This document shows, in pieces, positions 29,869 to 38,806 of a DNA stretch of 42,317 nucleotides (within the stretch, counting starts at the first letter, position 1; the number at the start of each line of letters is the position of its first letter). The notes below the pieces were generated by a model that searched no databases, was not told the DNA's origin, and was given only the letters and a program-made list of their open reading frames with translations. The stretch covers positions 1 to 42,317 of the forward strand of contig QMZC01000007.1 in NCBI GenBank assembly GCA_003662995.1, read 5' to 3'. The translations under genes and the position numbers were made by a program. The stretch is from Archaeoglobales archaeon. Its GTDB lineage: Archaea > Halobacteriota > Archaeoglobi > Archaeoglobales > Archaeoglobaceae.

Positions 29869-30285
29869 TCATTGATGTAATTCCTTTTCATCTGCTTTTA
29901 AAACAGCTAAAAATATGTTGGCTTTGAGTGTAGCCTCAAAATATCTTTTGTCAGGCTCTAAAACTGCAAATTTTTTTGGAATAGGGATACACAAAAATTC
30001 GTTGCACTGATATTTATACCTACCAACTTTATCCATAAGTATATCTACCTCATTCGGCTTGTCTCGTGAAGAAGTTATGTAAATCCTGCAATCCTTATTC
30101 TCTTTAATCAAATCAATGATATAATCAATTGGATATTTGTTTAACAACGCATAGCATATGTTTTCGGCAATCTTGATTTGAGGCAAATCAACATCAAGAC
30201 GTTCCATCTCATCATAAGTAAGAGTAATCAAAGATAAACTTTTCCAATTTTGGAAGTTTTTCGTCAACTGCAAAAGTATGTTCAA
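29869..30285 (-). CDS. unknown protein, 138 aa
   Basis: The sequence shows alternating strands and helices ([55 protein letters not shown]), compatible with a small alpha/beta domain, but no family is recognisable. The start is uncertain: ATG 30285 or ATG 30207 ([20 protein letters not shown]), with TGATGAG directly before the second. Starting at 30285 would overlap the 5' region of moaC, so the shorter form may be right. Confidence 0.5.
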
Positions 30286-30324
30286 AATTGCAAAGGTTTA
30301 TTTAAAATCAAACCTACTATATTC

Positions 30325-30786
30325 ATGCTCTCTCACATTGAAAATGATCGAGTAAGGATGGTTGATATTACCCAAAAGGAGGAGGTTTTGAGGATAGCTG
30401 AAGCGGAGGGGTTTATCAGGTTGAAAGAAGATACCATCAAAGCTGTTATTGAAAATAAAATTGCTAAGGGTAACGTGCTTGCAACATCAAACGTTGCAGC
30501 GGTTTTGGCTGTTAAGAAAACTCCTGAATTAATCCCAATGTGTCACCCCATCCCAATTACATCTGTGAATGTGTCATTTGATGTCGAAAACAATGGGATT
30601 AGGGCAAGATGTATTGTGAAAGCTGTAAGTAAAACCGGTGTGGAGATGGAGGCTTTGACTGGAGTAAGCACAGCATTGCTCACGATATGGGACATGGTCA
30701 AGTCGATGGAGAAGGAGAATGGAGGCTATCCAACAACAGCAATTGAATACATCAAGGTTGTAAGGAAAGAGAAAACCAAATGGTGA
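30325..30786 (+). CDS. moaC: cyclic pyranopterin monophosphate synthase MoaC
   Basis: The MoaC motifs are [50 protein letters not shown] and [16 protein letters not shown]. MoaC turns the MoaA product into cyclic pyranopterin monophosphate for molybdopterin or tungstopterin. I chose ATG 30325 because the family begins at about [16 protein letters not shown] and a TATA-like TTTATTTAAAA at 30297-30307 lies just upstream, giving a leaderless message. Confidence 0.92.
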
Positions 30787-32673: not shown

Positions 32674-32922
32674 ATGATGAAAAGGGAGAGTCTGAGGTAT
32701 CATAACATTGAGGTATCCCAAATGGTTGACGATGAAATGGTAAAGGAGATGGGATATAGAATTTCCCTGTCTGCAATACTTGTAACAGTACTATTTTTAA
32801 GCTTCGCGGTTTTTTATTTAATCGGTTTTGGCTTTATTCAATCTCTGGCAATTTCCATTGTCGTAGCATCTATAACCTTTTTTACCTCTAGAAAGACTTT
32901 AGAAAATCTTCGGATGAGATAA
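32674..32922 (+). CDS. small membrane protein, 82 aa
   Basis: Residues 1-28 are soluble and charged, followed by two membrane helices (LSAILVTVLFLSFAVFYLIG and FIQSLAISIVVASITFF) and a short basic tail. Two adjacent ATGs (32674 and 32677) could start it. The family is unrecognised. Its end overlaps the nicotinamidase gene on the other strand by 35 bases. Confidence 0.55.
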   Translation: MMKRESLRYHNIEVSQMVDDEMVKEMGYRISLSAILVTVLFLSFAVFYLIGFGFIQSLAISIVVASITFFTSRKTLENLRMR

Positions 32923-33433
32923 TTTCAGCGTTAAAAACGTTTTTCATGTGATTGATTGCATATTCGTACTCATAATCGCTAATTGCAGTTGTACAATCCT
33001 TTAAAACGCAAGCCTCGTATCCCCTCAGCACAGCATCACCAACCGTATGCAAGACGCAGATGTTTGTAACCACACCACCAAAGTAAAGCTTTTTAATGCC
33101 CAACTCCCTCAAAGTCAAATCTAAATCCGTACCGAAAAAAGCTGAATACCTTCTCTTCCTTATATAATAATCGTTTTTATCAGCCTCAAGTTCGTCTATG
33201 ATCTCAGCCCCTTCGGTGTTCATTATGCAATGCGGTGTCCATATCTTAAATTCAACATCATCCTCCCTATGCCAGTCTTGGGTGAATATCACGGGCATTT
33301 TTTCCCTGCATCGCTTAATTACCTTTCTAAGTGGATCGAATATAGCTTCAACGTGCTCACCAACAAAGAGCTTTCCGTTCTTATAGCAAAAGTCCTTCTG
33401 CATGTCCACAATAACCAAAGCCTCCATAACCAA
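32888..33433 (-). CDS. pncA: nicotinamidase / isochorismatase-family hydrolase
   Basis: The catalytic aspartate lies in VDMQKDFCYKNGKL, metal ligands in FTQDWHREDDVEF and TPHCIMNTEGAEI, and the catalytic cysteine in GGVVTNICVLHTVGDAVLRG, with the cis-peptide VVTN before it. This is the nicotinamidase pattern, converting nicotinamide to nicotinate for NAD salvage. The 181-residue length fits. It lies just downstream of the broken hydratase on the same strand. Confidence 0.88.
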   Translation of the reverse strand: MVMEALVIVDMQKDFCYKNGKLFVGEHVEAIFDPLRKVIKRCREKMPVIFTQDWHREDDVEFKIWTPHCIMNTEGAEIIDELEADKNDYYIRKRRYSAFFGTDLDLTLRELGIKKLYFGGVVTNICVLHTVGDAVLRGYEACVLKDCTTAISDYEYEYAINHMKNVFNAEIISSEDFLKSF

Positions 33434-33446
33434 AGTAGGGTAAATA

Positions 33447-34202
33447 TTAGATAAATGTTACACTAACACTTCCCAACGTATGGAACTCTGCCTCAAAAAC
33501 ATCACTGCCACCAACAGCAACTGGCGAAATCAATGAGCCAGCCAAAACCATTTCTCCAGCTTTTAAGTATTCGCCTGATTGTGCAAACTTGTTTATCAAC
33601 CACTCCAAAGCCAGAATCGGATTTTCCATAACGTTTGCTCCAACACCTGTTGAGATTATTCTACCATTTTTCTTGAACACCATGCCAATCAATTGCAAAT
33701 CCAAATCCTTTATTGGAAGAAGTTTGTTACCCAAAACAACCCTTGCAATTGACGCATTGTCAGCAATCGTATCTTGAATTTTAACCCTTCAATCCCTAAT
33801 CCTGCTATCAACAATCTCCAAAGCCGGAATTGCGTAAATGGATTCTAGAATCTCTGCCCTGTTTATACTCTTTAGGTCATTCGTCAAAAAGAATGCGATT
33901 TCAGCTTCAATTCTCGGCTGTATTAGTTCATCTATCTTAACCTCTGATATCACCATTTTGTCGGTTATATATCCACTCATCGGCTCTTCAACACCAAAAG
34001 CTTGCTGAATTGCCCTATTTGTCAATCCGATCTTCTTACCCACTATCTTCTCTCCCCTCTTCTCCTTAATTCTAACAACTTCCCTCTGTATTTTGTATGC
34101 CTCGTCAACAGAAATCTCTATTCTGCCAGTTATCGGTTCAATCTGCTCTTTTTTATCTTCAGCCTCTACTATTTCCTCAGCAAGCTTCAAAATCTCAGTC
34201 AT
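33447..34202 (-). pseudogene. 2-oxopent-4-enoate hydratase-like gene broken by one TGA
   Basis: Two frames in perfect register make one 252-codon gene. The N-terminal part has the metal ligands PRIEAEIAFFL and ALEIVDSRIRD, and the C-terminal part VKIQDTIADNAS, GVGANVMENPILALEWLINK and SISPVAVGG-like SLISPVAVGGSDVFEAEF. They are separated only by TGA 33791-33789, exactly where the family has tryptophan (DSRIRDW). A single TGG to TGA change explains this. The intact enzyme hydrates 2-oxopent-4-enoate or decarboxylates oxalocrotonate in meta-cleavage-like pathways. A restart at 33734 could give a partial protein, which would lack the metal site. Confidence 0.85.
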
Positions 34203-34291: not shown

Positions 34292-35329
34292 ATGTCTTCA
34301 ATTTATTTGCCATTGCACTACGGAAAAGCCCCTTACTGGTTGCTTGAGAGAATGAAAAAGTTGGCAAAGCCAATAATACTTCTAATTATCCAAGAGTTTG
34401 GTGAAAAGGAGTTCTTTGAGAGGATGTCAAATCCAATCTTTTTCCAGTCGTTTTCAAACGTTTTGGGTTTTGATTGGAACTCTTCGGGTACTACGACTGT
34501 TTTAACGGGTGTATTAAAATCTGTTTTAAATACGGAGGAGTTTGAGGTAAAGATTGCAGGAGGAAAAGGAAAATCAGCTTTAAATACACCGGATCAAATA
34601 AGAGAATTATCTAATGACCTCGGATTAAGGGACAGCAATGTGAAGAGATTGATTGAGGCAAGTAAAATGGCTGCTAAAGTTGATAACGCTGTTTTGCAGG
34701 ATGGATACGACATATATCACCACGCAATTTTGTTTTCAAAGAAGTATTGGACTGTGATCCAGCAGGGGATGAATGCCAAGTGTCGAATGGCAAGGAGATA
34801 TCACTGGGAGGTTTACAGGACAATTCCACAAATTGAAGATGTCCATTCGGGAATCGTTGCTGAGAGGAGGGAGGGTGAAGTAATCAACTTGGTTTCAAAT
34901 GAAAGCAGAGAAGCAAGAAAAATTTTACTGGATTTGATAAAAGAGGGGAGATTTAAAAGAGATTATCAAAAGCTCATCTCAATAAAGAAGTTTAGAGGTA
35001 GTTTACACGTTCCTAGGAGAATAGATTGGAACTCTGTCGAAAGAGCGTACGAACTGCAACCTGAAAAATTTGAGGATCTGCTGTTTATCAGAGGCTTTGG
35101 GAAAGGAGTAATTAGAGCTTTGGCTTTAATTTCAGATTTGATATATAATGTTGAATACGACAAACAAGATCCAGCCAAGTACTGCTTTGCCGTTGGTGGT
35201 AAAGATGGCGTTCCGTTTCCAGTAGATAAAAAGACTTACGACGAGGTAATCGAGTTTATGAGAGATGTTATAAAACAGGCTGAAATTTCCGATTTCGAAA
35301 GGAGAAAGATGATACAAAAATTGGGATGA
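34292..35329 (+). CDS. DUF763 protein with helix-hairpin-helix-like region
   Basis: The family pattern is clear: LPLHYGKAPYWLLERMKKLA, NPIFFQSFSNVLGFDWNSSG, IAGGKGKSALNTP and YDIYHHAILFSKKYWTVIQQ and GMNAKCRMARRYHW. A late FEDLLFIRGFGKGVIRALAL resembles a helix-hairpin-helix, suggesting nucleic-acid binding. I chose ATG 34292 over TTG 34289. DUF763 has no established activity, though its genes occur in archaea and thermophilic bacteria. It is the first gene of a four-gene run with a JAMM protease and a ubiquitin-like protein, starting one base before the next gene's leader. Confidence 0.85.
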   Translation: MSSIYLPLHYGKAPYWLLERMKKLAKPIILLIIQEFGEKEFFERMSNPIFFQSFSNVLGFDWNSSGTTTVLTGVLKSVLNTEEFEVKIAGGKGKSALNTPDQIRELSNDLGLRDSNVKRLIEASKMAAKVDNAVLQDGYDIYHHAILFSKKYWTVIQQGMNAKCRMARRYHWEVYRTIPQIEDVHSGIVAERREGEVINLVSNESREARKILLDLIKEGRFKRDYQKLISIKKFRGSLHVPRRIDWNSVERAYELQPEKFEDLLFIRGFGKGVIRALALISDLIYNVEYDKQDPAKYCFAVGGKDGVPFPVDKKTYDEVIEFMRDVIKQAEISDFERRKMIQKLG

Positions 35330-35330
35330 G

Positions 35331-35774
35331 ATGATGGAGGTAGAGATTAAAAAAGAGATTGTTGAAGAAATTTTGAAACTTTGCAGGTTTGACCTGATCT
35401 TTTCGGGGGATGAAGATAAAATAGTCTCGGGTAGCGTGGAAGAGGTGTGTGGTGTACTGATTGGTGAGTTGAAAGAAAACAAAATTGTGGTTGAAAAAGT
35501 TAGAAAAGCTGAAAATATCGCCAAATCTCCGTTTCTTTTTGAGATATCTCCCCATGATCTCTACAATGCTTATATCGATGCTCAAAAGGAGGGTAAGGAA
35601 GTTGTTGGTGTTTTCCATTCCCACCCCCACGGGAGCCCAAATCCTTCACCGTTGGACATTAAAGGAATTAAGGGTACGGGCTTACTCTGGCTTATTGTCG
35701 GGAGAGAATTAAAAGCATTTTCATATGATAATAAATTGAATAAAATAATTGAACTAAAAATCAAAATTGAATAA
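35331..35774 (+). CDS. JAMM/MPN+ metalloprotease, desampylase-like
   Basis: The zinc site is complete: E38 in SVEEVCGVLIG, then H96, H98, S106 and D109 in FHSHPHGSPNPSPLD, which fits HxHx7Sx2D. The 147-residue single-domain form is like archaeal JAMM1, which removes ubiquitin-like SAMP proteins from targets and processes precursors. The start lies one base after the DUF763 stop, with ATGATG. The ubiquitin-like gene 46 bases downstream makes this assignment convincing. Confidence 0.88.
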   Translation: MMEVEIKKEIVEEILKLCRFDLIFSGDEDKIVSGSVEEVCGVLIGELKENKIVVEKVRKAENIAKSPFLFEISPHDLYNAYIDAQKEGKEVVGVFHSHPHGSPNPSPLDIKGIKGTGLLWLIVGRELKAFSYDNKLNKIIELKIKIE

Positions 35775-35820
35775 CATAATTAACCGTTAACTTTATAATT
35801 TATTTGCTTCAGTATATAGT

Positions 35821-36015
35821 ATGGTGTGGCTGAAAAAAATTGGTTCAGCTGGACATACGGAAGTTGAGTTGCCGCTTGATGTGGCGGTATTGGAGGTTGA
35901 GAAGCACTTAAAACTGGGAGGAATAGTGACGAAAGAGGATGGAACTAAAATTGATTTGAGTGAGATAGGAGAAGATGACAAGTTAATCTTGATTCCTAGA
36001 ATCGTAGGTGGTTGA
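35821..36015 (+). CDS. small ubiquitin-like (SAMP-type) protein ending in Gly-Gly
   Basis: The 64-residue protein ends RIVGG, the diglycine tail of ubiquitin-like modifiers and sulfur carriers. The strands and the single helix (VWLKKIGSAGHTEVELPLD, VAVLEVEKHLKLGG, KLILIPRIVGG) match the beta-grasp fold of SAMP, MoaD and Urm1 at about their minimum length. A TATA-like CTTTATAATTTATT lies about 25-35 bases ahead, so it may also have its own leaderless promoter. No E1-like gene is in the window. Modifier and sulfur-carrier roles cannot be separated by sequence. Confidence 0.8.
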   Translation: MVWLKKIGSAGHTEVELPLDVAVLEVEKHLKLGGIVTKEDGTKIDLSEIGEDDKLILIPRIVGG

Positions 36016-36493
36016 AATAGAGATCGAATGCATAAACATCAAAGGATTCCCAACAGAAGAAGTATACGTTTGTAAAATCCAAGCAGAGGGATACACAAGG
36101 ATTATCCCACTATATAGACTCATTGAGAGAGATAGGTTAATCAAACTTGATATTCTTTTTAGGGATTGTAGAGTTAGGGATGACTGGCTTAAGATAATTG
36201 GATTGAATGAACAGGAAATTTTGAAAAAGTACTTTGAATCGGAAGAAGGAAGGGCTGAGAAATTGTTTATCGACTTGGTTAATGCTGGTGTGATACCTAA
36301 GCCGGTTAACGGAAAAATAACGTTCGAATCGAGGGGTATAAGATATGAAATAGATGTGAACGAGGAGAAGCTTTTCGTCAATGGCAAGGAAAGGTGTTTT
36401 ACTTGCAAGGAGGATTTACCGAAGTTTGACAGAATAATCTCTCTCTACTTCACTTTAATCCATTCTCCTGAAAATTTGAGGATGAGGGAATAG
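36008..36493 (+). CDS. unknown protein overlapping the ubiquitin-like gene, 161 aa
   Basis: I do not recognise this protein. It starts at GTG 36008, inside the Gly-Gly codons of the ubiquitin-like gene, an eight-base overlap that implies coupled translation. It begins with strands (IEIECINIKGFPTEEVYVCK) and has a helical middle (DDWLKIIGLNEQEILKKYFE, RAEKLFIDLVNAGVIPKPV). Cysteines occur in FRDCRVRDD and ERCFTCKED, the latter a CxxC pair. It is a candidate ligase, target-binding or accessory component. Confidence 0.65.
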   Translation: MVEIEIECINIKGFPTEEVYVCKIQAEGYTRIIPLYRLIERDRLIKLDILFRDCRVRDDWLKIIGLNEQEILKKYFESEEGRAEKLFIDLVNAGVIPKPVNGKITFESRGIRYEIDVNEEKLFVNGKERCFTCKEDLPKFDRIISLYFTLIHSPENLRMRE

Positions 36494-38029: not shown

Positions 38030-38806
38030 TTATCTAGCAATCTTAACTTCCACATTTCTTTTACTCCAACTCTCAACCATAACATCTTTGAGGTCGTAAA
38101 TCAAGTCAGCCAATTCGGGAATTATTCTAAATACTGCTAGAGATATTAAAATTAATGCCAGAGTTGCCAAAAATTTTGAAATTACATGGTGAGCTATGTA
38201 GAAACTATTTTCTCCAAACCATGAGTATCCGTAGCTTACCATAACAAACACGTTTCTAAACAAATTTAACACATAAATTGTTGGAACTGAGGCTAAAAAA
38301 GCTTTAAGGTTTCTTTTGAAGTCAGCTTTTATTGCAAGGGTAACACCACCGAATAGTGCCATACTCTCTATGCCTGTGCAAGCTAGTATTATCTTTACAA
38401 CCTTGTCATTTAACATAATCTTGGTGTCGTGATAGGTTAAAGGAAAACCCAACAAGTTTCCCAACCAAACGGTGTGGTTTATAACCACCCCAATCAGCAT
38501 CTCCTTTAAGCCCTCATCTAAAGCAAACGGGAAGTATATTAGAGCTGCTAAAGCAGAAAACGCCGTGACTTTGACAAACACATCAAATTCTCTCTCTTTT
38601 GCTATGGTTAATCCGAGCAGGTTGAAAAAGGCGAATGCGAGAAAAACAATGATGGCGTTGAAGTAATCCCCTATGCCAAGATAGTAGGGCAGGTTGAAAA
38701 TCCAAGCAAAACCGAAAGTAATCCAAGCAAAAACTCCAAACACCTTCTTCTTTAAAAAGACAAACAGTAGCATGAGTAAGACTGAAATTACTATTAATCC
38801 ATCCAT
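38030..38806 (-). CDS. artA: archaeosortase A
   Basis: The 258-residue multispanning protein has the exosortase/archaeosortase triad: C143 in ILACTGIESMALFGG, R184 in LNLFRNVFVM, and H206 or H207 in YIAHHVISKFLATL. ArtA removes the C-terminal PGF-CTERM tail of surface proteins and attaches a lipid, which in haloarchaea was linked to PssA and PssD. Its linkage to those two genes here matches that model. No substrate with a PGF-CTERM is in this window. Confidence 0.88.
   Translation of the reverse strand: MDGLIVISVLLMLLFVFLKKKVFGVFAWITFGFAWIFNLPYYLGIGDYFNAIIVFLAFAFFNLLGLTIAKEREFDVFVKVTAFSALAALIYFPFALDEGLKEMLIGVVINHTVWLGNLLGFPLTYHDTKIMLNDKVVKIILACTGIESMALFGGVTLAIKADFKRNLKAFLASVPTIYVLNLFRNVFVMVSYGYSWFGENSFYIAHHVISKFLATLALILISLAVFRIIPELADLIYDLKDVMVESWSKRNVEVKIAR

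Follow-up and report, generated by a model that had tools for sequence, protein, structure and literature searches.

A JAMM protease gene and a constant gene pair for a Gly-Gly beta-grasp protein and a partner of no known family in Archaeoglobaceae

The window, that is, the whole stretch of 42,317 nucleotides that was analysed, belongs to contig C7 of the Archaeoglobaceae genome G000, which shares its genus (g1) with G001 (MAG AUK153) and its family with G013 (Archaeoglobus sp. JdFR-37). It carries a run of genes (Table 1) for a DUF763 protein, a metalloprotease (JAMM), a small beta-grasp protein (Ubl) and a protein denoted X. When the open reading frames, motifs and coordinates were re-examined, all four genes were found as a first-pass annotation had described them, including the complete JAMM, the minimal beta-grasp protein with a free Gly-Gly end (VGG), its uncharacterised CxxC partner, for which no family match was obtained, and the eight-base overlap between the stop of Ubl and the GTG start of X, which spans exactly the positions 36008-36015. 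This overlap is specific to the genus, and a gap of about nine bases takes its place at the loci L011 and L022. The coding can be regarded as real, because full-length homologues of the frames exist in other genomes and the dN/dS of Ubl is about 0.10 (window versus G001).

Table 1. Genes and upstream element of the locus, in positions of the window
Feature	Position	Strand	Remarks
DUF763 protein	34289/34292-35329	+	PF05559, E 8.6e-117; 1 base upstream of JAMM
JAMM/MPN+ metalloprotease, 147 aa	35331..35774	+	Prok-JAB PF14464, E 1.3e-15
ATTAACCGTTA plus TATA-like TTTATAA, pre-Ubl element	35779..35798	+	kept across genomes with Ubl
Ubl, 64-aa beta-grasp protein, free C-terminal Gly-Gly	35821..36015	+	diverged ThiS/MoaD/SAMP type
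X, 161 aa, no known family	36008..36493	+	CFTC; overlaps Ubl

Elsewhere in the window, a pair of minus-strand frames (33447-34202) appears by eye to be a single 2-keto-4-pentenoate-hydratase-like gene, split by a frameshift or a sequencing error; its larger piece had no significant Pfam match. An exosortase/archaeosortase-like membrane protein (PF09721, E 5.5e-6; 38030-38806) adjoins the phospholipid genes psd and pssA, both assigned by eye.

Ubl belongs, in diverged form, to the beta-grasp proteins of the ThiS/MoaD/SAMP type. Comparison with the local ThiS/MoaD/SAMP proteins by hhalign gave 89% (E 2e-6), and the Pfam ThiS model matched two of the four Ubl members (best E 7.9e-4), the window member not being one of them, with whole-genome matches below the cut-off. 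Against the PDB, the Ubl profile had a ribosomal protein as its top match overall (E 0.019), and its best beta-grasp match, end-to-end up to the Gly-Gly and with a weak E of 0.38, was SAMP2 (5lda_B), the partner chain of Pyrococcus furiosus JAMM1 (PfJAMM1) in the same crystal complex. The AlphaFold model of Ubl has a pLDDT of 85, and its Foldseek list is filled with ubiquitin-fold proteins (E about 5e-3, TM about 0.5), Caldiarchaeum ubiquitin being among the top matches. Clustering with the MoaD/ThiS sulfur carriers had been named by the first-pass annotation as a point that would speak against its reading; Ubl is indeed homologous to that family, but it forms a clade of its own (100/99). It should be noted that this homology cannot tell sulfur transfer and conjugation apart, because the family includes the conjugating SAMPs.

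The Gly-Gly is found at the same position of Ubl in five of five genomes. In G001 (L010:6428-6643, G001:C117) the stop of the window is absent and Ubl continues beyond the Gly-Gly as GGYNRDRMY, which is either a precursor for JAMM to trim or a difference between strains or assemblies; such trimming would be necessary for the extended protein if its sequence is correct. A MoaD-like protein of G000 (L122:596-856, G000:C67) ends in VSGGFN, two residues past the Gly-Gly, and the counterpart in G001 (L126) has GG as its end; this protein is possibly another candidate substrate for trimming by JAMM.

The JAMM motif is intact (HSHPHGSPNPSPLD, corresponding to HxHx7Sx2D) and is accompanied by the upstream Glu, and the residues E38, H96, H98, S106 and D109 are invariant among three aligned JAMM members. 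The best PDB match is PfJAMM1 (5lda_A/5ld9, E 2.1e-19). With 63.3 bits against the NCBIfam model of haloarchaeal desampylases (NF041370), below the equivalog cut-off of 130, the protein belongs to the same superfamily as these desampylases and not to that equivalog; the Cap3 model gave 26 bits, the cut-off being 200.

Further JAMM genes were observed in other settings. In genus g7, a SAMP2-like Ubl with the ending ISGG has a different JAMM immediately after it (L061:1050-1755 of G007, also L060 and L063), and this is an independent pair. In genus g4, other JAMMs (L062, L065, L066, L067) lie near a cytidylyltransferase-like gene, an association that has been reported before (PMC2948915). At L068:4441-5396 (G317:C210), the beginning of the JAMM gene overlaps with an isochorismatase-like gene, with AOR, a ferredoxin-like protein, a MoaD-methyltransferase fusion and a phenylacetate-CoA-ligase-like gene upstream (by eye); an isochorismatase (PF00857) is also encoded at 32888-33433 of the window, and the SAMP targets of Haloferax include an isochorismatase-family hydrolase (PMC4443979).

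X has no significant match in Pfam, NCBIfam, PHROGs, PADLOC, the PDB (sequence and profile) or Foldseek (PDB and viral), and PADLOC had no match for Ubl either. Five of its cysteines are invariant (Cys 8, 22, 54, 130 and 133, the last two within CFxC). Its structure model is of low confidence (pLDDT 67), and therefore the Foldseek result is weak evidence. A replacement of MoaE by X was ruled out, as X has no Pfam MoaE match and all 13 genomes tested encode MoaE at another locus.

Searches for Ubl and X covered 60 relatives and 394 genomes of the phylum. X is carried by five of these 394 (G000, G001, G013, G249 and G317), and in each of the five the end of Ubl directly precedes it; in G249, the contig stops 41 bases upstream of X, and these bases encode LVPAIKGG-stop, the end of Ubl. 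Across the Archaeoglobaceae carriers, which are kin to the heat-loving Archaeoglobus, Ubl has 64-67 and X 161-166 amino acids, and neither had a convincing match in the remaining approximately 389 genomes sampled. A pattern scan for X in 84,980 GTDB genomes, which used short patterns and was non-exhaustive, returned only two carriers, both already known, and X was found neither on plasmids nor on viral contigs. The chance that all four genomes with a full Ubl would fall among the five with X is about 5e-9 on the assumption of independent genomes, which these are not. The better argument is the adjacency of Ubl and X across differing chromosomal settings: downstream of the module lies dihydroneopterin aldolase in the window, and, by eye, G013 has an isoaspartate methyltransferase and cob genes beside the pair, and G249 and G317 both have an aminotransferase there. 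The conserved unit in Archaeoglobaceae is the Ubl-X pair and not the run of four genes to which attention had originally been drawn.

Four of the five X-bearing genomes (G000, G001, G013 and G317) have JAMM upstream of Ubl, and the G249 sequence ends at the contig edge. The gap between the two genes is 46-80 bases (G000, G013). In G001, DUF763-JAMM-Ubl is found on one contig and Ubl-X on another, and G317 has one contig that ends in JAMM-Ubl and a separate Ubl-X contig, the shared part being identical. The Ubl-linked JAMMs, together with one from G003, make up one side of the JAMM tree of the family (support 80/91); no Ubl follows this JAMM in G003.

The first-pass annotation had also included DUF763 in the system and had suggested a tie to DNA through it. 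In both g1 genomes DUF763 directly abuts or overlaps JAMM, and a helix-hairpin-helix-like stretch is conserved in it (23 of 30 loci by pattern), which would agree with a functional part that links the module to DNA. Its neighbourhoods do not bear this out: DUF763 is present in 53 of 55 Archaeoglobaceae genomes and the module in five; JAMM, Ubl and X are absent within about 1.5 kb of 29 other DUF763 loci inspected (30 including that of the window); the sole further linked case is G001, of the same genus; and in G013 and G317 DUF763 lies on another contig. The linkage of JAMM, Ubl and X exceeds chance and that of DUF763 does not. On this distribution DUF763 was rejected as a functional partner, and a connection of the module to DNA by this route appears highly improbable. 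Since DUF763 is nearly universal in the family and linked to the module only in g1, it is probably a bystander outside the conserved module that, in a single genus, most likely came to be transcribed together with JAMM.

The element upstream of Ubl, ATTAACCGTTA together with the TATA-like sequence, is found in G000, G001 (two contigs), G013 (with two mismatches) and G317 (two contigs). Because these conserved sequences lie in the gap between JAMM and Ubl, the Ubl-X pair probably has its own promoter or operator there. In both G001 and G317, Ubl occurs with two upstream contexts, and the breakpoints lie at the same spot. The second context of G001 is the end of an identical repeat of 116-127 bases that is present in five copies at contig ends (C3, C35, C117, C122 and C177), one of them just upstream of Ubl-X, and that probably marks where an insertion sequence terminates; an insertion sequence or a strain mixture explains the double context. 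In G317, which is 9% contaminated, the second context is formed by a stretch that has copies of 76-98% similarity at other places, and a strain mixture is the simplest explanation here too. A programmed DNA rearrangement at ATTAACCGTTA, suspected from the shared breakpoints, was rejected on these grounds.

The search for an E1-like ThiF/UbaA that had been proposed as a check was successful outside the cluster: G000 encodes two ThiF-type E1s (PF00899, E 9e-73 and 1e-71, on C15 and C25), and therefore an activating enzyme is at hand. Within the cluster there is neither an E1 nor a recognised E2. The genome also encodes the MoaD-like protein ending in GGFN, an AOR-linked MoaD and MoaE, so that standard MoCo parts are present apart from the module. 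A gene assigned by eye as moaC is found close to JAMM both in the window, at 30250-30786, and in G003.

What is established is the gene set, the family membership of JAMM and of Ubl, and the fixed pairing of Ubl with X. The explanation that we favour, with moderate confidence, is a SAMP/JAMM-like ubiquitin-fold module in which Ubl serves X as its dedicated partner, be it as the recipient of sulfur or as the protein conjugated, and in which JAMM sets Ubl free. The C-terminal glycine of Ubl would be adenylated by a ThiF/UbaA-type E1 from another part of the genome, and the activated protein, thiocarboxylated or adenylated, would be handed to X. MoaD serves MoaE, ThiS serves ThiG and CysO serves CysM, and the proposed delivery is modelled on these pairs. 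X would most likely take up sulfur on an invariant cysteine and relay it onward, or otherwise would itself be the conjugated protein, and JAMM would cut the amide or isopeptide adduct after the Gly-Gly, or trim tailed precursors, to yield free Ubl; DUF763 would stand outside the mechanism. Against this reading stand the G003 JAMM, which is of the same subclade and has no Ubl after it, the apparent promoter of Ubl-X, and the fact that the Ubl-X contigs of G001 and G317 carry no JAMM; the five cysteines of X could also be structural or metal-binding. With respect to gene order, the proposal of a dedicated Ubl/JAMM module with a partner of no known family is supported by the adjacency of Ubl and X in all five genomes and by the JAMM subclade upstream.

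Were Ubl a true lysine modifier, X could be an E2/E3-like transfer factor and JAMM the reversing enzyme. A JAMM alongside a Ubl with a free Gly-Gly fits this scheme, conjugation of SAMPs is known from Haloferax (PMC4443979, PMC4895103), and the invariant cysteines of X could carry a thioester. Nevertheless, protein conjugation of this kind seems unlikely: the predicted order of secondary-structure elements in X is unlike that of the E2 (UBC) fold and Foldseek returned no E2 or E3, although from a model with a pLDDT of only 67, and SAMP systems function without E2/E3. X is more likely a recipient of sulfur than a ligase. An ordinary SAMP/MoCo accessory, in which Ubl would simply add to the sulfur carriers that serve molybdopterin or the thiolation of tRNA and X would be an unrelated protein or minor helper, would be in line with the homology of Ubl to ThiS/MoaD, with the location of JAMM-Ubl downstream of an AOR/MoaD-fusion gene set in G317 and with the nearby moaC. 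We consider it quite improbable, as two other ThiS/MoaD proteins and MoaE are already available in the genome and Ubl belongs to a separate clade and is always accompanied by X. In the favoured SAMP/JAMM-like module, X, whose putative role is suggested by gene order, is the new component; tentatively, it might even be the founder of a new family that specifically accepts or ligates a Ubl of its own, so that some Archaeoglobaceae would have a private pathway of sulfur transfer or conjugation apart from SAMP/MoCo, with a JAMM dedicated to reversing it.

The module bears on the question whether archaeal Ubls are sulfur carriers, modifiers or both, and its gene order names a likely client: with one Ubl tied to one uncharacterised protein, and usually to a JAMM, it offers a small, testable system. 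The mycobacterial CysO-CysM-Mec+ gene set comprises a Ubl sulfur carrier, a dedicated recipient enzyme and a JAMM hydrolase. The locus resembles it in this composition, but X has no Pfam match and thus no resemblance to the PLP cysteine synthase. CysO has been discussed before (PMC3227635). In Haloferax, HvJAMM1 frees SAMP1 from MoaE (PMC4443979), and both systems have a ThiS/MoaD-type Gly-Gly Ubl, a JAMM (there a desampylase), a single main partner and an E1 encoded elsewhere; here, however, the partner is X and not MoaE, the genes are clustered, Ubl has a shorter chain and a clade to itself, and JAMM falls below the desampylase cut-off. P. furiosus JAMM1-SAMP2 (PDB 5lda) provides the best solved relative of JAMM and the best beta-grasp match of Ubl, whereas the similarity of Ubl is weak and the PDB showed no homologue of X. 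The bacterial Ubl/E1/E2/JAB operons, including CBASS Cap2/Cap3 and Bil (PMC1779556, PMC10097602), share the theme of JAMM with Ubl or of conjugation, but the present cluster lacks an E1 and a recognised E2, its JAMM is far below the Cap3 cut-off and PADLOC found no match for Ubl or X. In Caldiarchaeum, an archaeal ubiquitin-fold protein is likewise encoded with a JAMM, CsRpn11, that also trims precursors (PMC6043591); unlike that operon, the locus has no recognised E2 or RING, and its Ubl is of the ThiS/SAMP type by sequence. The statement that no described system has this composition thus holds for X, but JAMM and SAMP pairs are already known (PMC4443979), and the module appears to be a SAMP/JAMM system on a small, private scale with one new component, X.
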